Assembly: GCA_035709005.1 (NCBI GenBank)
Contig: DASTFB010000087.1
Span: 1 to 64,000 of the forward strand
DNA from: Candidatus Methylomirabilota bacterium
GTDB lineage: Bacteria > Methylomirabilota > Methylomirabilia > Rokubacteriales > CSP1-6
Direction of reading: 5' to 3'
Length of the DNA stretch: 64,000 bases
Shown: positions 18,788 through 26,744 of the stretch, piece after piece
Layout: every line of letters starts with the position of its first letter
Position numbering within the stretch: position 1 is the first letter of the stretch
Notes under the pieces: model-generated
Seen by the model: the letters and a program-made list of their open reading frames with translations, nothing else
What the model was told of the DNA's origin: nothing
The model's database searches: none
Translations under genes and position numbers: made by a program

Positions 18788-19552
18788 ATGAACCCCTGGC
18801 TGGTGCTGCTTGCGCTGATCGTCCTGGCCGCGGCATTCGTCGTCGCCCCCGTCGCGGCGGCCAGCCTGTCCTACTGGCGGCGGGCCTGGCTGGTGCGCTG
18901 CCCTCAAGACGGTGCCGAGGCCCGGATCGCCGTGAACGCCCGCCGGGCGGCGCTGGCCGAGGTGCTGGGCGGATCGGGGCCCGAGATCGTGCGCTGCACG
19001 CTCTGGCGGACGCTGCCCTCGCTGAGACCGTGCGGACAGGAGTGTCTTGCGCGCCCGATCAGCGAGCGGCGGCCGGCCGGGCCACGCTGGCACCGCGGGG
19101 CCGGCGTGCGCACGATCGTGGTCCCGCTCGATGGCGCACCGGGCAGCGAATCGGTTCTCCAGACCGCCGCCGACCTGGCCCGCGCCCACGGGGCCAGCGT
19201 GCGCCTGGTGCGCGTCGAGCAGCCGCCATCCCTCGTGTACTCCCTCGATGATCGGATCGTCGCCTACTCCGATCAAGAGAGCGCGCGGATCGAGCAAGAG
19301 GCACGGCGCTACCTGGCCGGTATCGCACGAGGGCTCCCGGACCTGCCCGTGGACCTGGTCGTCCGGTTCGGCGATTCCGCCACCGAGATCGCCGAGGAGG
19401 CCGAGAAGGCCGACGCCGATCTCATCACCATGGCCACCCATCGCCGGCGAGGCGTCATGCGCGCTCTCAAAGGGAGCGTGGCCGAGCGCGTCGCGCGCTC
19501 GACGGACATCCCGCTGGTGCTGGTCCCCTACGGCCCGCCGGCGGCGGCCTGA
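18788..19552 (+). CDS. Membrane-anchored Cys-rich domain fused to a UspA domain
   Basis: 254 aa, three parts. Residues 4-26 are a membrane segment (LVLLALIVLAAAFVVAPVAAA). Residues about 34-95 form a Cys-containing region (VRCPQDG, VRCTLW, RPCGQECLARP) that may bind metal. Residues about 106-250 are a universal stress domain (TIVVPLDGAPGSESVLQTAADLA ... ATHRRRGVMRALKGSVAERVARSTDIPLVLV), with the G-x2-G-x9-G(S) nucleotide motif altered to RRRG...GSV. Ribosome-binding site AAAGGAG. It is 18 nt after the amidohydrolase, so still in the same transcription unit. Confidence 0.75.
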   Translation: MNPWLVLLALIVLAAAFVVAPVAAASLSYWRRAWLVRCPQDGAEARIAVNARRAALAEVLGGSGPEIVRCTLWRTLPSLRPCGQECLARPISERRPAGPRWHRGAGVRTIVVPLDGAPGSESVLQTAADLARAHGASVRLVRVEQPPSLVYSLDDRIVAYSDQESARIEQEARRYLAGIARGLPDLPVDLVVRFGDSATEIAEEAEKADADLITMATHRRRGVMRALKGSVAERVARSTDIPLVLVPYGPPAAA

Positions 19553-19556
19553 GGCG

Positions 19557-20345
19557 GTGACCGGCCCTCCCCCGGCCCGGCTCGTGGCGCCGAGTCGCGG
19601 CAGCGTCTGGACGACGCGCACCGTCGCCTGGTACGAGCGCGCCGACGCGCGGAGCGACTACGCGCGTCGCGTCCTCGACGTCATCGCGCCGCTCGTCGCC
19701 GACTGCCGCTCGGCTCTGGACGTGGGCGCTGGCTTCGGGGCCCTGGCCCTGCCCCTGGCCGAGCGCCTGCGGCAGGTCACGGCACTCGAGCCCTCGCCGC
19801 CGATGGCCACGGCCCTCCGCCGTGGCGCATCCCGGCGCGGCCTCGGTAACGTGACGGTGATCCAGGGGGCGTGGGGCGAGGTCGAGCTCGAGCCCCACGA
19901 CCTCGTCATCTGCGCTCACGTGGGGTCCCTGCTGCACCCCGGCTCGCCCTTCCTCGCCGACGTCGGCCTGGCGGCCAGGCGTGGCGTGGCGCTCGTCCGC
20001 GACACGCCCGGCGGCGATGACAAGTTCTTCTTTTCCGAGCTGTACCCGATCCTGCTCGGACGGACCTACGAACGGTGCAACGGTGCCGCGGCGACGGTCG
20101 GCGCCCTCGACCCGCTCGGTGTGAACGCGGCGGCAACCGCCATCGAGTATCGTTCCGACCAGCCCTTCGACAGCCTGGACGACGCTTGCGAGTTCTGGAC
20201 GACCCACCTGGGACGGGACGACGCGCAGGCCCGGGCCTTCCTGCGTGATTTCCTGGCGGACCGGCTACGGCGCGAAGGCGACCGATGGATCGCGCCCTAC
20301 CGCAAGCGCGCCCTCGTGGTCCACTGGCGAGTGCCCCAGCCATGA
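19557..20345 (+). CDS. SAM-dependent methyltransferase
   Basis: 262 aa from GTG 19557, 4 nt after the Usp gene. Class I Rossmann motif I is LDVGAGFGALALPLAERL (about residues 50-67), motif II VTALEPSPPMATALRRG, and an acidic/hydrophobic post-II strand HDLVICAHVGSLLHPGSPFLADV. The C-terminal half (DDACEFWTTHLG) is helical. Substrate unknown. Its stop overlaps the hemerythrin gene (CATGA), implying a functional or at least translational link. Confidence 0.8.
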   Translation: MTGPPPARLVAPSRGSVWTTRTVAWYERADARSDYARRVLDVIAPLVADCRSALDVGAGFGALALPLAERLRQVTALEPSPPMATALRRGASRRGLGNVTVIQGAWGEVELEPHDLVICAHVGSLLHPGSPFLADVGLAARRGVALVRDTPGGDDKFFFSELYPILLGRTYERCNGAAATVGALDPLGVNAAATAIEYRSDQPFDSLDDACEFWTTHLGRDDAQARAFLRDFLADRLRREGDRWIAPYRKRALVVHWRVPQP

Positions 20346-20896
20346 ACACACCGACCGAGACGCTTCGCGACGAGCACGTGCTCATTCTCCGGGCGCTGGA
20401 TCTCCTCGAGACGGCGGCCGCGCGTGTCGAGCGTGGCCTTGCCACCCCCGAGGGGTGGTGGGCCGACGTGATCGCGTGGTTGCGCGGCTTCGCCGACCGG
20501 AACCACCACGCCAAGGAAGAGCGCGCGCTGTTCCCCGCCATGGCCAGGGCGGGCGTGCCGGCCGAGGCCGGCGGCCCCATCGCCGTGATGCAGGAAGAGC
20601 ACGGGCAGGGACGCGCGCTGCTGCAGGTCGTGGCGGACGGCGAGGCCCGACCGCGCGTGGTGGCGGCGCGACGCTACATCGACCTGCTGCGCAACCATAT
20701 CGAAAAGGAAAACGAGGTGCTGTTTCCGCTGGCCGACGACCTCCTCGACAGGGCAGCGCAGGACGCGCTCGGGCGCGAATTCGCCACGGTGACGGCGGAG
20801 ATGGGGCGCCACGCTTCGCTCGAGCACGCCGCAGCGGCCCTCCAGGCGCTCGTCACGGGGCTGGCCGGTTCGCCTGACGCCGCCGGTACCCGCTAG
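20342..20896 (+). CDS. Hemerythrin HHE cation-binding protein
   Basis: 184 aa, helical. Iron-ligand motifs for a di-iron hemerythrin-like bundle are visible: DEHVLILRALD (about 10-20), NHHAKEERALFP (about 58-69), EEHGQGRALL (about 88-97) and NHIEKENEVLFP (about 119-130). Such proteins bind O2 or NO, or sense iron. It faces a convergent operon whose last gene is a radical-SAM protein and whose first gene has a ScdA_N (RIC/YtfE-type) domain, with only 7 nt between the two stops. Confidence 0.88.
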   Translation: MNTPTETLRDEHVLILRALDLLETAAARVERGLATPEGWWADVIAWLRGFADRNHHAKEERALFPAMARAGVPAEAGGPIAVMQEEHGQGRALLQVVADGEARPRVVAARRYIDLLRNHIEKENEVLFPLADDLLDRAAQDALGREFATVTAEMGRHASLEHAAAALQALVTGLAGSPDAAGTR

Positions 20897-20903
20897 CACG
20901 CCG

Positions 20904-22289
20904 TCAGGGCCGGCCGCTGACAGCCATGAGGTCCGGGGTCCAGGGCGGATCGAAGGTCAGGCTCACGCGGGCGTCGGTCACCCCCGGGACCCTCAGCACC
21001 GCCTCGCGCACCCAGTCGAGCATCACCTCGTGGATGGGGCAGCCGGACGTGGTGAGGGTCATGGTGATGTCGACCCGGCCGCCTTCGATCTCGACCCGGT
21101 AGACCAGCCCCAGCTCCACGATCGAAAGGCCGAGCTCGGGATCGAGCACGGTCCGGAGCGCCGCGACGACGTCGTCCCGTTTGACGGGCAGCGCCACATC
21201 GGAGCCGCCGGCCAGCACCGGTGTCGCCCCGGGCGCGGCCGGCACCCAGGCGCAGCCCGGATCCTCGGCCAGAGGATCCCCCGTCGCCGCCCAGGCCCGG
21301 GCCCGGGAGCCTCCGCAGCGCTCGCGATACTCGCAGCGGCCGCAGCGCCCCCGCAGCTGCGCGGCATCACGGAGCGAGCGGAATAGCGGGTGCTCGCGAT
21401 AGACCGCCACCAGATCGTCCCGGCGCACATTGCCCGCCGATAGCGGCAGGAACCCGCTCGGGCAGATGGCACCCAGGTGATCGATGAAGACGAATCCGTT
21501 ACCGTCGGTCACCGCGCGTCCGGCGCGTCCGATTCGGTCGGGGCGCACCCCCGATAGTCCGGGGCGACGGCCGATTCCCTGCTGGGCCAGCACCCGGTGA
21601 TAGTGCGGGGCTTCGGTGGTCTTGACGCCGAAGGGCACGCGCGCGGCCAAGCCGGCAGCCCACACCAGGACGTCTTCGATCTCGTCGGCCGCCAGCGCCT
21701 GGCCAGCGTCCGCGCGCCCCACGGGAATCAAGAAGAACAGCGCCCACAGGGCGGCCCCGTACGTCTCCATCTGCGTGGCCAGCGCTGGCAGGTCGGCGAC
21801 GGTTCGCCGGCAGACCGTGGTGTTGATCTGCAGCGGGAGCCCGAGCCCGCGGGCCCGCTCGATGATCCGCATGGTGTGCCGGTGCGATCCCACGACGCCG
21901 CGGAAGGCGTCGTGGACGTCCGCCGTCGCCCCATCGAGACTCACCGCGAGGCGGGCCAGCCCCGCGCCTTTCAGGCCGCGGAGCCTGGCTTCGGTGACCG
22001 CTGCGGTCCCGCTCGGAGTCAGTGACACGCTGAGGCCGCGCGCCGAGCCGTAGGCGACGAGCTCGGCGATATCCGGCCGCCGCAGGGGATCGCCGCCGGT
22101 CAGCACGAAGAGTGGCGGGGGATCGCCGAAGTCCCGCACCCGGTCGACGAGCCGGCGGGCTTCCTCCGTCGTGAGCTCGCCGGGATCGCGATGGGGCATC
22201 GCCTCGGCGCGGCAGTGCACGCACGCGAGCGCACACGCGCGCGTCGTCTCCCAGATCACGATGAACGGCGCTCGATCGAAGCCGCTCAC
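20904..22289 (-). CDS. Radical-SAM/SPASM protein fused to a MIP18 (DUF59) domain
   Basis: 461 aa from GTG at 22289, which overlaps the stop of the upstream gene. Cys19-x3-Cys23-x2-Cys26 is the radical-SAM [4Fe-4S] site. The core resembles the heme-modifying AhbC/AhbD/TIGR04053 group (ExTRACxLxCxHC, LTGGDPLRRPD). A SPASM-like cysteine set follows (CPSG, CGRCEYRERCGG, about 285-345). Residues about 370-455 are a MIP18/PaaD/SufT-like domain (VVAALRTVLDPELGLSIVEL ... TTSGCPIHEVML) of the Fe-S assembly family. Carrying both in one chain is unusual; the MIP18 half may help install a cluster. Product unknown. Confidence 0.82.
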   Translation of the reverse strand: MSGFDRAPFIVIWETTRACALACVHCRAEAMPHRDPGELTTEEARRLVDRVRDFGDPPPLFVLTGGDPLRRPDIAELVAYGSARGLSVSLTPSGTAAVTEARLRGLKGAGLARLAVSLDGATADVHDAFRGVVGSHRHTMRIIERARGLGLPLQINTTVCRRTVADLPALATQMETYGAALWALFFLIPVGRADAGQALAADEIEDVLVWAAGLAARVPFGVKTTEAPHYHRVLAQQGIGRRPGLSGVRPDRIGRAGRAVTDGNGFVFIDHLGAICPSGFLPLSAGNVRRDDLVAVYREHPLFRSLRDAAQLRGRCGRCEYRERCGGSRARAWAATGDPLAEDPGCAWVPAAPGATPVLAGGSDVALPVKRDDVVAALRTVLDPELGLSIVELGLVYRVEIEGGRVDITMTLTTSGCPIHEVMLDWVREAVLRVPGVTDARVSLTFDPPWTPDLMAVSGRP

Positions 22290-23581
22290 GACGCCCGCTC
22301 CCGAGGCGACGCGGCCTGCCGGGCCCGGGCCCGCAGGTGGCCCAGGACCCGGACGAGCGCGAGACCGAAAGCCAGCCCCCCGGCGGCGACGAGGGTCGCG
22401 GCGATGGTGATCACCGCCGCGTCCCCAATGCCGATCGCGATCGCCAGCGTGGCCAGTCCCGTGGTCAGCAGCGCATAGGCGGTCCCCTCGCCGGCGGGCC
22501 AGCCGAGCTGAGCCAGCGTCGGCACCGGCCGCCGTCCCGCCCGGGGGCCATAGGCGCGGTACCAGACGAGGAACGGTACGATCTTCAGCATCATCCCCGC
22601 GATCGTGAGCGACACCCAGCCGCCCAGAGCCAGCACACCATAGGCGAGCGCCAGCCGGGGCCCCGACCAGAGTCCCGTCGCGAAGCCGAGGCCCAGCAAT
22701 GTGGCCGGGGAAAGAAACGCCGCGCCCGTCAACACGAACCGCAGTCCCCAGTCGAGGCTCGGCCGCTTGCCGCGCCAGGCCATCTCGGCAACCCACGCGA
22801 GATGACCCGCGACGGCCACGGCCACCAGCGAGGCGCCGACGACGGTGAGTGCGCTCGCCTCGAGCAGGAGACCGGCGACAAGGCCGGGGACGCCGAGCAC
22901 GAGGCCCCAGAACTGGGCGCGCCCTACCCAGCCGTCGGGCTCGCGCGCGAGCAGGAACATCGGGTAGAGGCGGGCCGCCACGCCGATCACCATGGGCAGC
23001 ACCCAGCCGAGCAGGGCCAGATGCACGTGAGCGTGAAGGTTGGCGAAGACCGCGCCCGGCAGGAACCTCCAGATCTTGTCGAGGCTCAGAGCCAGTCCGA
23101 AGAGAGCGGTCAGGGCGAGCCCCGCCAAGGCCAGCGCCACCAGGCGAGCGGTGAAGCTCCACCGCCGCAGACCGCGCACGGTGAGCGTCACGTTGACGAG
23201 ATGCATCGCCATCCCGGCGACGACGAGACCGGCGCCCCACGCGAGCCCCTCCCACCGGGCGATGGCGAAGTGCCCCACCATTCCTACGACGCCGGCGGCG
23301 AAGAGCGCCAGTTGCCAGCGCGCCAGCCGCTCGCTCCAGACGGGACGCTCCAGCACCACGGGGATGAGCTGGTAGCTCGCCCCCATGATGGCGAGCGTGA
23401 TCCACCCGAGCGTCAGCGTGTGGGTGAGGGCGAGGAGCCGTGGCTGGTAGTAGTGGCCCGCCAGCTCGGAACCGAGCCACGGCACCGCCAGCGCGGCCAC
23501 GACGAAGGCGGCCGCCGCGGTCATCAGGTAGCTCAGCGGCAGCGCGACCGACGGCCCCCGCCCAGGCGAGGGCCGGATCAT
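22286..23581 (-). CDS. Polytopic membrane protein, NnrS/heme-copper-oxidase-like
   Basis: 431 aa with about twelve hydrophobic segments. Conserved-looking histidines sit in or near membrane helices: GHYYQPRLLALTHTLTLGW (about 42-60), MVGHFAIARW, GMAMHLVN and LHAHVHLALLGWVLP (about 183-197). This layout recalls heme-binding NnrS and subunit-I-like proteins, but the full heme-copper oxidase ligand set is not evident. It overlaps both neighbours by 4 nt, between the ScdA_N gene and the radical-SAM gene, suggesting a role in NO or heme stress. Confidence 0.6.
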   Translation of the reverse strand: MIRPSPGRGPSVALPLSYLMTAAAAFVVAALAVPWLGSELAGHYYQPRLLALTHTLTLGWITLAIMGASYQLIPVVLERPVWSERLARWQLALFAAGVVGMVGHFAIARWEGLAWGAGLVVAGMAMHLVNVTLTVRGLRRWSFTARLVALALAGLALTALFGLALSLDKIWRFLPGAVFANLHAHVHLALLGWVLPMVIGVAARLYPMFLLAREPDGWVGRAQFWGLVLGVPGLVAGLLLEASALTVVGASLVAVAVAGHLAWVAEMAWRGKRPSLDWGLRFVLTGAAFLSPATLLGLGFATGLWSGPRLALAYGVLALGGWVSLTIAGMMLKIVPFLVWYRAYGPRAGRRPVPTLAQLGWPAGEGTAYALLTTGLATLAIAIGIGDAAVITIAATLVAAGGLAFGLALVRVLGHLRARARQAASPRERAS

Positions 23582-23838
23582 CCCCGGCCGCTCGCCGATC
23601 CGGGCTCGTCTGGCAGCTCACCCAGCGCCGCGAGCAGCCTGCCGAGGTCGACGCCGGCCGCGGCCGACGCCTCGGCCAGCGTCAGGCCCGCCCCGCAGCA
23701 GTGATTGATCCCGAAGCGCTGCAGCACCTCGAGGGCCCTCGTGGACCGCCCGGCGACCTCGCCGACCGTCTGGGCCGCCGCCGTGCGCGAGGTTCCCGTG
23801 GCGTGCCCTTGATGACCGTGGCAGCTGCACGTGGCCAT
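23578..23838 (-). CDS. ScdA_N (DUF542) domain protein, RIC-like
   Basis: 86 aa. His/Cys-rich N-terminus (CSCHGHQGHATG), then the ScdA_N domain: VGEVAGRSTRALEVLQRFGINHCCGAGLTLAEAS (about 25-58, reported here as a segment with the key FGIxxCCG core). In full-length RIC/YtfE/ScdA this domain precedes a hemerythrin-like di-iron domain that repairs Fe-S clusters after NO damage; here it stands alone, although a separate HHE protein is encoded nearby. Excellent ribosome-binding site (AGGAGG) 8 nt before ATG. First gene of a three-gene operon. Confidence 0.85.
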   Translation of the reverse strand: MATCSCHGHQGHATGTSRTAAAQTVGEVAGRSTRALEVLQRFGINHCCGAGLTLAEASAAAGVDLGRLLAALGELPDEPGSASGRG

Positions 23839-23882
23839 GACTGGTTCCTCCTGACACCAGCGTAGCCACCGGGTGCCGGCGC

Positions 23883-23904
23883 GCCTATGATGCCGGTCAT
23901 AGGC
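23883..23904. promoter_or_regulatory. 22-bp palindrome, CRP/FNR-family operator candidate
   Basis: GCCTATGA-N6-TCATAGGC is a perfect inverted repeat with 8-bp arms in the 79-nt gap upstream of the ScdA_N operon, about 45 nt before its ATG. The core TATGA-N6-TCATA has the spacing of CRP-family sites (TGTGA-N6-TCACA). A CRP/FNR/DNR-type sensor is therefore the likeliest binder; the regulator is not in the window. Confidence 0.55.
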
Positions 23905-23917
23905 CGGGCGAGCCGCG

Positions 23918-24352
23918 CTATCCGCGCAGGGCCAGACCGAGGACCACCACGGCGAGCACGACGAGGACGTTCGCTCGAGCCACCCACGAGGCGCGCACGC
24001 GCAGGCCGGGGTCGGCCCCCGGCGCCCCCGCGCGCGGCCCCAGAACGAAGTCGTGGATGACGCCGAGCGCCAGGGCGAGCACGACGAGCCCGAGCTTGAC
24101 GTGGAACAGCGGCACCCCGAGCAGGTACGGCCGCAGCCACAGGTTCAGGAGCCCGCTCAGCAGGAGCAGGCTGAGCGCGATCCACCCCACCGTGCGAAAG
24201 CGCAGGCCCGTCGCGTGAACGAGGCGCAGACGCTCGGCTGGCTCCAGTCGTCGCACGACCGGGACCAGCACGAGCGCGATGAAAAGCATCCCGCCGATCC
24301 ACACGATAGCCGCCAGCACGTGCAGGCTGCGGGCGAGGAGCGAGAGGCTCAC
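23918..24352 (-). CDS. Four-helix membrane protein, CopD-like
   Basis: 144 aa with four hydrophobic helices. The N-terminal LARSLHVLAAIVWIGGMLFIALVLVP (HVLAAxxWxGG) pattern with a membrane-embedded His is shared by CopD and related small putative copper/heme membrane proteins. It begins 3 nt after the MgtE-like gene, so it is the last gene of the ZIP-Usp-Usp-MgtE run. Function uncertain. Confidence 0.65.
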   Translation of the reverse strand: MSLSLLARSLHVLAAIVWIGGMLFIALVLVPVVRRLEPAERLRLVHATGLRFRTVGWIALSLLLLSGLLNLWLRPYLLGVPLFHVKLGLVVLALALGVIHDFVLGPRAGAPGADPGLRVRASWVARANVLVVLAVVVLGLALRG

Positions 24353-24355
24353 GGC

Positions 24356-25339
24356 TCAGCCCATGAACGCGCGCGCCACGGTGAGATAGATCAGGATCGA
24401 CAACAGATCCTGGATCACCGTGGCCAGCGGTCCGGAGCCGAAGGCCGGATCTCCGCCCAGGCGCTGCAGGAGCCACGGCAAGGCGATCGCCACCGCGGTC
24501 GCCGTGGAGCACGCCGCGGCCAGGGAGATGCCGAGGACCGCCATGAGCTGGCTGCCATCCCAGCGCCATGCCAGGGGGACCGAGGCCAGGGCCAGTCCGA
24601 GCCCGATCAGGATCCCGGTGACGATTTCCTGGCGTACCACGCGGACGAGCGGGATGCCGACGGATAGCCCTCGGACCACCAGTGTCTCGGTCTGGGTACC
24701 GACCGCGTCGGCCAGGTAAACGATGCCGGGCAGGAAGAACGCCAGGACGAGGCTCGAACGGACCTCGTGCTCGAAGGCGGCGACGAGGTCGGCAGCGAGC
24801 ACCATGCCCGCCAACCCTACGACCAGCCAGGGCAGGCGGTGGGCCAGACGACGCCACACCGGCTCCTGGAGCGAACGCCTGGCCGAGAGCGCATCGCGCC
24901 AGAGGCCGCCGAGCCGGGCCATGTCCTCATGGTGCTCGGCGAGGAGCACCGCCAGGAGCCGCTGGGGCGGGATAAGCCCGACGAAGCCTCCCGCCTCGTC
25001 GACGACCGCCAGCGCCGACTCGCCCTGCTGAACCGCCTTCCAGGCGGCGAGCTCCTGGTCGGCCCCCGGACGTACGACGGGCGGGTCGGGATCCATGATC
25101 GTCCGCGCCGACGAATCGGCCGGGGCCCGCAGCAGCGCCTCGATGGGAACCAGGCCCACCAGGCGACCCTCCACGCACACCGCGACATCGGTGGCGCAGT
25201 CGTAGCGCTCGCCGGCGAGGGCCGCGCGGATCTCGCCGGCGGTGGCCTCCGGTGTCGTCGTCGGAACGCGCCGCGCGACATGCTCGCCGGCCGTCTCGAA
25301 GGCCACCGGGAAAACGGTCTCGTCGTCTGGGACCGCCAT
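24356..25339 (-). CDS. MgtE-like divalent cation transporter
   Basis: 327 aa. Two CBS domains occupy about residues 30-145 (TDVAVCVEGRLVGLVPIEALL, SALAVVDEAGGFVGLIPPQRLL). Five membrane helices follow, with the MgtE pore signatures PGIVYLADAVGTQTETLVVRGL and STATAVAIALPWLLQRLGGDPAFGSGPLATVIQD. The N-terminal MgtE_N superhelical domain is missing, so the protein is shorter than the usual ~450 aa and its Mg2+ gating may differ. It lies between two stress-protein genes and the CopD-like gene with short gaps. Confidence 0.85.
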   Translation of the reverse strand: MAVPDDETVFPVAFETAGEHVARRVPTTTPEATAGEIRAALAGERYDCATDVAVCVEGRLVGLVPIEALLRAPADSSARTIMDPDPPVVRPGADQELAAWKAVQQGESALAVVDEAGGFVGLIPPQRLLAVLLAEHHEDMARLGGLWRDALSARRSLQEPVWRRLAHRLPWLVVGLAGMVLAADLVAAFEHEVRSSLVLAFFLPGIVYLADAVGTQTETLVVRGLSVGIPLVRVVRQEIVTGILIGLGLALASVPLAWRWDGSQLMAVLGISLAAACSTATAVAIALPWLLQRLGGDPAFGSGPLATVIQDLLSILIYLTVARAFMG

Positions 25340-25358: not shown

Positions 25359-26246
25359 CTAGCCGGCGGGGCGCGGGCGGCGTTTGACGACCAGCACCGA
25401 GCACGGGGCGTGATGGAGCACGCGCTCGGAGACGCTTCCCAGCACCAGACGCATCATGGTTCCGTGCCCGCGCGCTCCTACGACGACGAGATCGATCTGC
25501 GGCTCGCTGGCGGCGCCGATGATCTCCTCGGCCGGGTTGCCGAGAATACAGGATTGTTCAACATTTGCGGTCTTCGATCTCAGTTCTGTCTCGAGATCTC
25601 TCAGCACACCCTCGAGCCTGGTCCGCCAGGCTCCGGCCGACTCCCGGAGCGCCGTCGGGACCGGCACCGCAAAGAGCTCGGGATCGGCGACCGGGATGCG
25701 CGGGGGCTCGGCCACGGCAACCAGTCGAATGACGAGCGTCGGGTCCAGGGGGAGCGCGGCGAAGAACCGGGCGGCCCGCATGGAGTCCGGCGAGCCGTCC
25801 ACGGCGATGACGGCCTTCCGCAAACCTGGCGGCCGTCCCTTGACGACGAGCACCGGGCAGGGCGCATGGTGTACGGCCGCCGTCGAGACGCTACCGAGCA
25901 GCCAGCCTTTGACAGCGCCCAGGCCCCGGGCCCCGACGACGACCAGGTCGGCGTTCCACTCCTCGGCAAGCCGGGAGATCTCCTCGCGCGGCTCGCCCTC
26001 GACCACCCGCGCGCTGGCCGCCCACCGCCGAGTGAGGTCGGCACGGGCTTGCTCGGCGACAGCGGCGGCAGCCCCTCGCAGGCCGTCGTAGTAGGCCCGC
26101 ACCGTCGGAATGTCGAGGGCCGAGTGAGGCAGCGTCACCACCGCCAGGACGACGATCTCGGCTGAAGCTGGCAAGGGGAAGCGGCTCAGCCACTCTCCGG
26201 CCGCGCGGGCGTCCGCCGAGCCATCGGTCGCGTACAGGACCCGCAT
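25359..26246 (-). CDS. Tandem universal stress protein (two UspA domains)
   Basis: 295 aa. Domain 1 (about 1-140) carries VVVGARGLGAVKGWLLGSVSTAAVHHAPCPVLVV and domain 2 (about 143-290) VVVGARGHGTMMRLVLGSVSERVLHHAPCSVLVV. Both retain the G-x2-G-x9-GS nucleotide motif, so both probably bind ATP. Start is ATG at 26246, 24 nt after the next Usp gene. Confidence 0.92.
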   Translation of the reverse strand: MRVLYATDGSADARAAGEWLSRFPLPASAEIVVLAVVTLPHSALDIPTVRAYYDGLRGAAAAVAEQARADLTRRWAASARVVEGEPREEISRLAEEWNADLVVVGARGLGAVKGWLLGSVSTAAVHHAPCPVLVVKGRPPGLRKAVIAVDGSPDSMRAARFFAALPLDPTLVIRLVAVAEPPRIPVADPELFAVPVPTALRESAGAWRTRLEGVLRDLETELRSKTANVEQSCILGNPAEEIIGAASEPQIDLVVVGARGHGTMMRLVLGSVSERVLHHAPCSVLVVKRRPRPAG

Positions 26247-26270: not shown

Positions 26271-26744
26271 TCAGGGCTCGCGGGATGGCGCGGCCTGGCC
26301 CGGCGGCGTCTGGACCATCATGCCCGCCGGGCGCACGACCAGGACGGGCACGGCCACGCCGCGCAGGACGGCTTCGGCGACGCTGCCGAACATTTCCTTC
26401 TCCCGGCCGGTGCGGCCGTGCGTCGTCATCACGATGAAGTCGACCTCGTAGTCGCGGGCCGCTTTCGCGATGGCGGCCGCCGGTGCACCATGCCACAGGA
26501 CCGTAGCCACCGCGGCGCCACTGCCCTCCAGGCGATCCCGTATCGACTTCAAATACGCCTCGGCTTCGCGGATGGGGGCGAGCTGGCCCTCGACAGGCGC
26601 GGGCTCGTGATCGAACCGCGCGCTGGTGACACGGACCACGAGCAGCTTCGCGCCGGAGGTACGGGCGAGCTCCCGGGCGACGGGCAGGGCCGCCTCGGCC
26701 GTCTCGGAGCCGTCGAGCGGCAGCAGGATTCTCTTCACTGGCAT
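26271..26744 (-). CDS. Universal stress protein, single domain
   Basis: 157 aa. RILLPLDGSETAEAALPVARELA at the N-terminus and IVMTTHGRTGREKEMFGSVAEAVLRGVAVPVLVV near the end define an ATP-binding UspA domain (G-R-T-G ... G-S-V). The last 20 residues are a short Pro/Ala tail. It sits 39 nt after the ZIP transporter gene in the same orientation. Confidence 0.92.
   Translation of the reverse strand: MPVKRILLPLDGSETAEAALPVARELARTSGAKLLVVRVTSARFDHEPAPVEGQLAPIREAEAYLKSIRDRLEGSGAAVATVLWHGAPAAAIAKAARDYEVDFIVMTTHGRTGREKEMFGSVAEAVLRGVAVPVLVVRPAGMMVQTPPGQAAPSREP

Follow-up and report, generated by a model that had tools for sequence, protein, structure and literature searches.

The locus described here lies in a stretch of 64,000 nucleotides (nt), called the window below, that covers positions 1 to 64,000 of contig DASTFB010000087.1 of an uncultured Candidatus Methylomirabilota bacterium (Rokubacteriales). 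Three minus-strand genes, for an ScdA_N protein, an oxidase-fold membrane protein and a radical-SAM protein of family TIGR04053 fused to a MIP18 domain, overlap by 4 nt at both junctions and stand behind an exact palindrome. We consider it on balance probable that this trio is one operon of a Crp/Fnr-type regulon for nitrogen oxides or anoxia, serving oxygen-independent synthesis of heme b, the predicted enzyme activity, together with iron-sulfur (Fe-S) repair by a split RIC. The features are the following.

23918-24352, minus strand: CopD-like membrane gene upstream of the trio (PF05425)
23883-23904, no strand: predicted palindromic operator GCCTATGA-N6-TCATAGGC, conserved core CTATGAY-N4-RTCATAG
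23859-23864, minus strand: -10-like element TACGCT, 20 nt downstream of the 18-nt operator core
23848-23852, minus strand: Shine-Dalgarno sequence AGGAG of the ScdA_N gene
23578-23838, minus strand: ScdA_N gene, 86 amino acids, INHCCGAG motif (PF04405, 45.9 bits)
22286-23581, minus strand: membrane-protein gene, 431 amino acids (PF00115, COX1, 35.1 bits, barely above the cut-off)
20904-22289, minus strand: radical-SAM/MIP18 fusion gene, 461 amino acids (Radical_SAM; PF01883, 79.8 bits)
21240-22280, minus strand: radical-SAM/twitch core, region of the alignment with seven invariant Cys
20961-21179, minus strand: MIP18/DUF59 domain (PF01883; closest PDB entries 2cu6 and 1uwd)
20342 (likely start) or 20285 to 20896, plus strand: hemerythrin-domain gene (PF01814, 78 bits)

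This layout agrees with the initial annotation, which was made from the letters of the sequence. It had described a trio with 4-nt overlaps behind a Crp/Fnr-type palindrome, a radical-SAM protein with a C-terminal Fe-S-assembly domain, a convergent hemerythrin gene 7 nt away (20896 against 20904) and a RIC-type N-terminal domain without its di-iron part. Indeed, RIC models match the ScdA_N protein with their N-terminal 50-60 positions only.

The palindrome reads GCCTATGA-TGCCGG-TCATAGGC, and its CTATGA core lies 46 nt upstream of the ScdA_N start. Its pattern has a single match in the window even when three mismatches are allowed (0.07 expected in shuffles). In the host genome a relaxed pattern occurs at 26 places versus 9 with a reversed control, and the exact core TATGAY-N4-RTCATA at four sites versus none; a count across 95 phylum genomes gave 74 exact core sites versus 4. 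Relatives for comparison of the operator were collected via the radical-SAM protein, and CTATGAY-N4-RTCATAG stands directly upstream of the operon in six out of six fully informative Rokubacteria (L016, L017, L018, L020, L021 and L077). The operator also precedes the radical-SAM gene in L019, L022, L075 and L080 and in an Acidobacteria relative (L027). Thus the palindrome is conserved before the operon in relatives, which the initial annotation had proposed to check. Within the host's own family, 17 of 21 genomes with TIGR04053 have the site and 9 of 36 without it do (p=7e-5, a generous value since the genomes are related).

A TAnnnT -10 element lies 19-22 nt from the core in 23 of the 40 distinct sites. 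The offsets 20 and 21 nt beyond the core account for 22 cases and every other offset for two or fewer, where the chance rate of TAnnnT is about 0.0008 per position. Because of this spacing, the operator centre would fall at about -41.5 from the predicted start, which is the class II position of Crp/Fnr regulators, and such a predicted promoter layout, with TAnnnT at 20-22 nt, is present in the window and most relatives. One could take the palindrome for a chance repeat or for the terminator of the CopD-like gene upstream, and this idea has in its favour that the palindrome of the window begins 14 nt from the gene. However, the palindrome has no T run, and relatives have it kilobases away from the CopD-like gene, yet at a constant distance to the operon and the -10 element. 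Conservation, counts against the control and the -10 spacing rule this idea out, and we give it practically no weight. The CopD-like gene itself is loosely associated with the system; it adjoins the Crp/Fnr gene or the operon in L016, L019, L021 and L144. We have high confidence in the predicted operator and in its assignment to a regulon.

The other exact sites of the host genome point to the content of this regulon. One (L084) lies between a Crp/Fnr gene and an operon for a DUF2249 protein and a mini-oxidase, one (L085, contig C71) before a heme-copper enzyme operon of eNOR type, and one (L086) before the genes for a cytochrome/ethylbenzene-dehydrogenase-like subunit and a type II molybdoenzyme. 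When aligned with the ba3 oxidase of Thermus, the C71 enzyme retains the heme and CuB His ligands and has GHPSQQ in place of GHPIVY, that is, Gln for the catalytic Tyr; a COX2 gene for a cupredoxin subunit II is immediately upstream. Gln at the active-site Tyr and a cupredoxin subunit just upstream define eNOR (PMC8756737), and the C71 enzyme is probably a nitric oxide (NO) reductase. An eNOR-type enzyme with the operator also adjoins the trio in L017 and L077. Sites of other relatives are flanked by genes for Crp/Fnr, mini-oxidase, ScdA_N, DUF2249, the membrane protein, eNOR subunit II or molybdoenzyme. Most relatives have a DUF1858/DUF2249 gene inserted between the ScdA_N and membrane-protein genes; it is absent from the operon of the window, but at L084 of the host a DUF2249 counterpart stands behind this operator. 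The protein has the same architecture as DrpB of Thermus, which is required for proper nitrate respiration (PMC6282519). The occurrence of the same site before nitrogen-oxide genes of this genome, a second check proposed in the initial annotation, was therefore confirmed for the eNOR-type, DUF2249 and type II molybdoenzyme operons. Since the site is both conserved and common to such genes, the proposal of a nitrosative system was right in kind, and the predicted nitrogen-oxide context of the operon is strongly supported.

In eight relatives the Crp/Fnr protein shows 63-70% identity, and its recognition helix reads VETxIR. It has no clear sensor signature and its relatives include FixK and FNR, so that the palindrome might answer oxygen or the general redox state rather than NO, as part of a microaerobic respiratory switch. 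The host sites, on the other hand, precede genes of an eNOR-type enzyme, a DUF2249 protein and a type II molybdoenzyme; ordinary oxidases that have the catalytic Tyr are not among the genes behind them, and we regard such a switch as rather unlikely. The predicted regulon resembles those of NnrR/DNR type, in which Crp/Fnr control joins nitrogen-oxide enzymes, accessory genes and an anaerobic heme gene; for example, Bradyrhizobium NnrR controls nirK, hemN, a DUF1858 gene and others (PMC6710368). It differs in the site (CTATGAC-N4-GTCATAG here, TTGNN-N4-NNCAA there) and in having TIGR04053 in place of HemN.

Some further palindromes were seen. On contig C14 of the host (L083; sites 19234, 21154 and 23031) three imperfect copies surround a different Crp/Fnr gene, a MOT1 molybdate transporter gene and CopC/CopD-like genes. 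We left them uncounted as regulon members because of that different Crp/Fnr gene and because one tested site does not have the -10 spacing. L145 and L147 have the palindrome between two divergent genes, one for eNOR subunit II and one for a separate MIP18-domain protein.

The radical-SAM protein matches the radical-SAM/SPASM profile TIGR04053 in full length (positions 3-366) with 453 bits, above the cut-off of 395. Its second-best profile is AhbD with 311 bits; since this is below the equivalog cut-off of 500, we did not file the protein as TIGR04545. The NirJ profile gives about 151-152 bits against a cut-off of 515. All AhbDs have CX3CX2C and a C-terminal CX2CX5CX20-38C (PMC10452713), and the seven invariant Cys of our alignment form CX3CX2C (C20, C24 and C27) and CX2CX5CX20C (C317, C320, C326 and C347). 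Ser or Glu occupies the positions of auxiliary cluster I in AhbDs with one auxiliary cluster (PMC10452713); in our own reading, the invariant Ser279 and Ser329 may be equated with these positions. The structure model has a predicted local distance difference test (pLDDT) score of 80. In the tree, the proteins of the window, Bacillus, NC10, Thermus and Haloferax larsenii form one well-supported clade.

The gene order in H. larsenii is DUF2249, TIGR04053, halocyanin and a norB-like gene, with CGAA-N4-TTCG palindromes before the TIGR04053 gene, and the published layout at ahbD (HVO_2144) of H. volcanii is the same (PMC5746218; PMC8305020). Deletion of that gene abolished only denitrifying growth and growth by dimethyl sulfoxide (DMSO) respiration, and heme rescue was full for DMSO and partial for denitrification (PMC5746218; PMC8305020). 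From the synteny, rather than from the sequence of HVO_2144 itself, we infer that HVO_2144 is a TIGR04053 protein. TIGR04053 adjoins nar/nor genes in several Bacillus. The window protein thus shares with AhbD (Methanosarcina barkeri, Desulfovibrio and HVO_2144) the Cys motifs, a sister-family score and the proposed anaerobic role, and with the Haloferax case also a denitrification palindrome and a norB neighbourhood. Unlike AhbD, it scores below the equivalog cut-off, is bacterial, occurs in a background of HemQ and ferrochelatase and carries the C-terminal MIP18 fusion. NCBI assigns no function to TIGR04053; the window protein belongs there by its full-length, above-cut-off match and its nitrogen-oxide gene neighbours, and it differs by the MIP18 fusion, found among the members compared only in those of Rokubacteria type. 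The literature searched contained no paper on TIGR04053, and that on Methylomirabilis heme synthesis and ScdA_N/DUF542 none directly on the trio operon. Taken together, the radical-SAM protein is a likely candidate for an anaerobic heme b synthase. The initial annotation had proposed a nitrosative or heme-repair system. The nitrogen-oxide part stands with the shared conserved site, and heme repair is recast as heme synthesis without oxygen, given the AhbD-like character of the radical-SAM family.

Could the protein modify a tetrapyrrole for a nitrogen-oxide enzyme instead, as NirJ does toward heme d1, or make a special heme of eNOR? It belongs to the same superfamily branch as NirJ, the Thermus member lies between nirS and nirM and is named NirJ, and CtaB is present in the eNOR cluster of L017. 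Yet the AhbD score is twice that of NirJ (311 versus 152 bits), the haloarchaeal carriers adjoin copper NirK, for which no heme d1 is needed, the Haloferax deletion mutant responds to protoheme, and in one genome (G059, below) a nir-type cluster has an AhbC/NirJ-like protein of its own. This alternative appears improbable to us, and heme b remains the favoured product. No nirS or nirF gene adjoins the trio in the window.

Related proteins also occur elsewhere. The host has a third, AhbD/NirJ2-like radical-SAM protein (L119:5448-6491, contig C132) with about 300 bits to both models and a long branch. On plasmid pDFI2 of Deinococcus ficus (L166), TIGR04053 adjoins genes for CbiX/SirB, CobA and nitrite/sulfite reductase, not those for NO reductase.

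The gene content for heme synthesis was compared in 35 genomes, the host plus 34 others in which the radical-SAM protein has a relative. HemQ was above the cut-off in 27 and HemN in none. The host has HemQ and ferrochelatase, and neither HemN nor HemF was found by profile cut-offs. HemN was above the cut-off in none of the 95 phylum genomes either; the whole phylum being without it, lack of HemN alone does not single out the TIGR04053 carriers. The informative cases are the NC10 genomes without HemQ: of the 15 genomes of that family, 14 have TIGR04053 above the cut-off and seven are without HemQ. One of these seven, the complete single-contig genome G059, has ferrochelatase and TIGR04053, with HemQ, HemF and HemN not above the cut-off. 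Besides TIGR04053, it has no AhbD-like protein other than the AhbC/NirJ-like one of the nir-type cluster. TIGR04053 is therefore the best candidate in G059 for the last step to heme b. In the genomes searched, all HemN-like and HemW-like matches were below the cut-off; the one in G059, an unassigned HemN-related protein below every cut-off, might conceivably act as HemN.

HemQ requires peroxide, and an oxygen-independent coproheme decarboxylase is required yet unknown in Bacillaceae (PMC10965808). AhbD was earlier proposed to work with hemY/hemH/hemQ genes (PMC10548856), so an anaerobic AhbD-type step in HemQ bacteria is not a new idea. The assignment of this step to TIGR04053, however, was not found in the literature searched. 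The missing enzyme of B. subtilis may be other than TIGR04053. As for hemQ neighbourhoods, a radical-SAM gene lies near hemQ in several Rokubacteria, and in the host a MoaA-like one (L118:7377-9079, contig C3; TIGR02666 above the cut-off) directly follows hemQ.

The fusion of radical-SAM and MIP18 domains is shared by the window, L016, L017 and L018, and in L024 a separate MIP18 gene directly follows the radical-SAM gene. MIP18 may be the keeper of the clusters of the radical-SAM enzyme. It is also conceivable that the operon is chiefly for Fe-S or iron repair after NO damage, with the radical-SAM protein modifying a protein or peptide, MIP18, ScdA_N and hemerythrin rebuilding clusters, and heme being incidental. 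Such a role would fit the MIP18 fusion, ScdA_N, the hemerythrin, the complete RIC that L027 has behind this operator and the fact that peptides are frequent substrates of SPASM proteins. But the operon showed no gene for a small precursor peptide, the family neighbours the heme synthase AhbD, and among the relatives it is the radical-SAM protein that is constant while MIP18 and ScdA_N vary. We judge a mainly repair-directed operon to have a small chance and keep heme synthesis at its centre.

The window ScdA_N protein is not a complete RIC (YtfE/ScdA), because its 86 amino acids contain the ScdA_N domain only and the halves are in two genes. It is like RIC in the ScdA_N domain with its CC motif and in the hemerythrin half being encoded separately nearby; the difference is that no single protein of the window has both halves. 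The hemerythrin gene is convergent also in L016 and L021, with an imperfect copy of the operator just upstream there, and in the Acidobacteria relative L027 this operator precedes the gene of a full-length RIC. There is a precedent in NsrS of Thermus, a 65-residue protein of ScdA_N only in an NO-controlled cluster, for which a cupin was proposed as the iron-binding partner (PMC5748679); that cluster contains TIGR04053 as well. The Thermus nic cluster (NsrS/NsrT and NorCBH-NirSJM) is thus like ours in having an ScdA_N-only protein and TIGR04053 under NO control, and differs in its cupin NsrT where a hemerythrin is found here, in its regulator NsrR-Th and in its cd1 nitrite reductase. The full RIC of L027, the partial sites of L016 and L021 and the Thermus precedent make a split RIC of ScdA_N and hemerythrin plausible, and we give it an even chance. 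The suggestion of the initial annotation that this hemerythrin supplies the missing di-iron half is hence supported as a lead.

The membrane protein has 12 helices (AlphaFold pLDDT 89) and by Foldseek resembles subunits of cbb3 oxidase and NO reductase, with template modelling (TM) scores up to 0.76; a PDB sequence search gave no match. COX1 was the sole match to a hidden Markov model (E<=0.001 for the window protein, E<=1 for three homologues). With this match and the cbb3/NO reductase fold, the NnrS-like identity of the initial annotation is ruled out. Its description as His-rich and polytopic stands in that the protein is polytopic and contains His, and fails in that only H54 (helix 2) and H185 (helix 6) are invariant across relatives. 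The protein thus shares the 12-helix fold of CcoN and NorB, but not their His-His pair or complete CuB and heme ligand set, and it has no conserved His in helix 10. Since the His-His pair and the complete CuB site are missing, it is not a working oxidase or NO reductase. The homologue of Planobispora and Nonomuraea forms the N-terminal portion of a larger protein, whose cupredoxin and copper-oxidase domains are, by general domain models, similar to those of copper nitrite reductase. Such a fused homologue is in the same locus as TIGR04053 in two Streptosporangiales (L064:9101-11782 and L070:7418-10054), and NarG is also in L064.

Several observations weigh against our interpretation. L022, L075, L080 and L019 have the site before a radical-SAM gene without the membrane protein. 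A second TIGR04053 copy of the host (L120:5154-6197, contig C40; 395-396 bits, near the cut-off), which in the tree joins the NC10 copies, has no palindrome. The absence of HemQ was seen in only a few NC10 genomes, mostly drafts. The shortfall of the TIGR04053 protein from the AhbD equivalog cut-off, the link to HVO_2144 through synteny only, and the name of the Thermus member beside nirS point the same way.

On the interpretation we prefer, the regulator would turn the operon on when oxygen is gone and NO appears. The TIGR04053 enzyme would then convert coproheme to heme b without oxygen, relieving the peroxide-dependent HemQ, and this heme b would supply NO reductase and cytochromes. The two [4Fe-4S] clusters of the radical-SAM enzyme, as targets of NO, might be loaded or restored by the fused MIP18 domain, and the split RIC of ScdA_N and hemerythrin would repair Fe-S or iron centres. 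The membrane protein probably binds one heme and may sense NO, carry electrons or receive heme, which is the least certain step.

In the surroundings of the locus, three universal stress protein genes are found (18788-19552, 25359-26246 and 26271-26744, the third identified by eye), and an MgtE-like gene (24356-25339) has no usual N-terminal part.

Finally, TIGR04053 may be a widespread oxygen-independent coproheme decarboxylase of bacteria with the HemQ route, placed inside nitrogen-oxide regulons of bacteria and archaea. Its fusion in Rokubacteria to its own Fe-S carrier would keep heme synthesis going under NO, and the oxidase-fold partner, joined to cupredoxin and copper-oxidase domains in Streptosporangiales, would be a new NO- or heme-handling membrane family. 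We put this wider proposal forward tentatively, at a little less than an even chance. The radical-SAM protein of the locus is a concrete candidate for completing heme without oxygen where the known enzyme depends on peroxide; in many bacteria this final step is still described as missing. Such a role would also account for the company that a radical-SAM family without assigned function keeps, from Bacillus to haloarchaea, with genes for nitrate, nitrite and NO. The sites found here further define a predicted nitrogen-oxide regulon and its operator in the phylum to which the NO-dismutating methane oxidisers belong.

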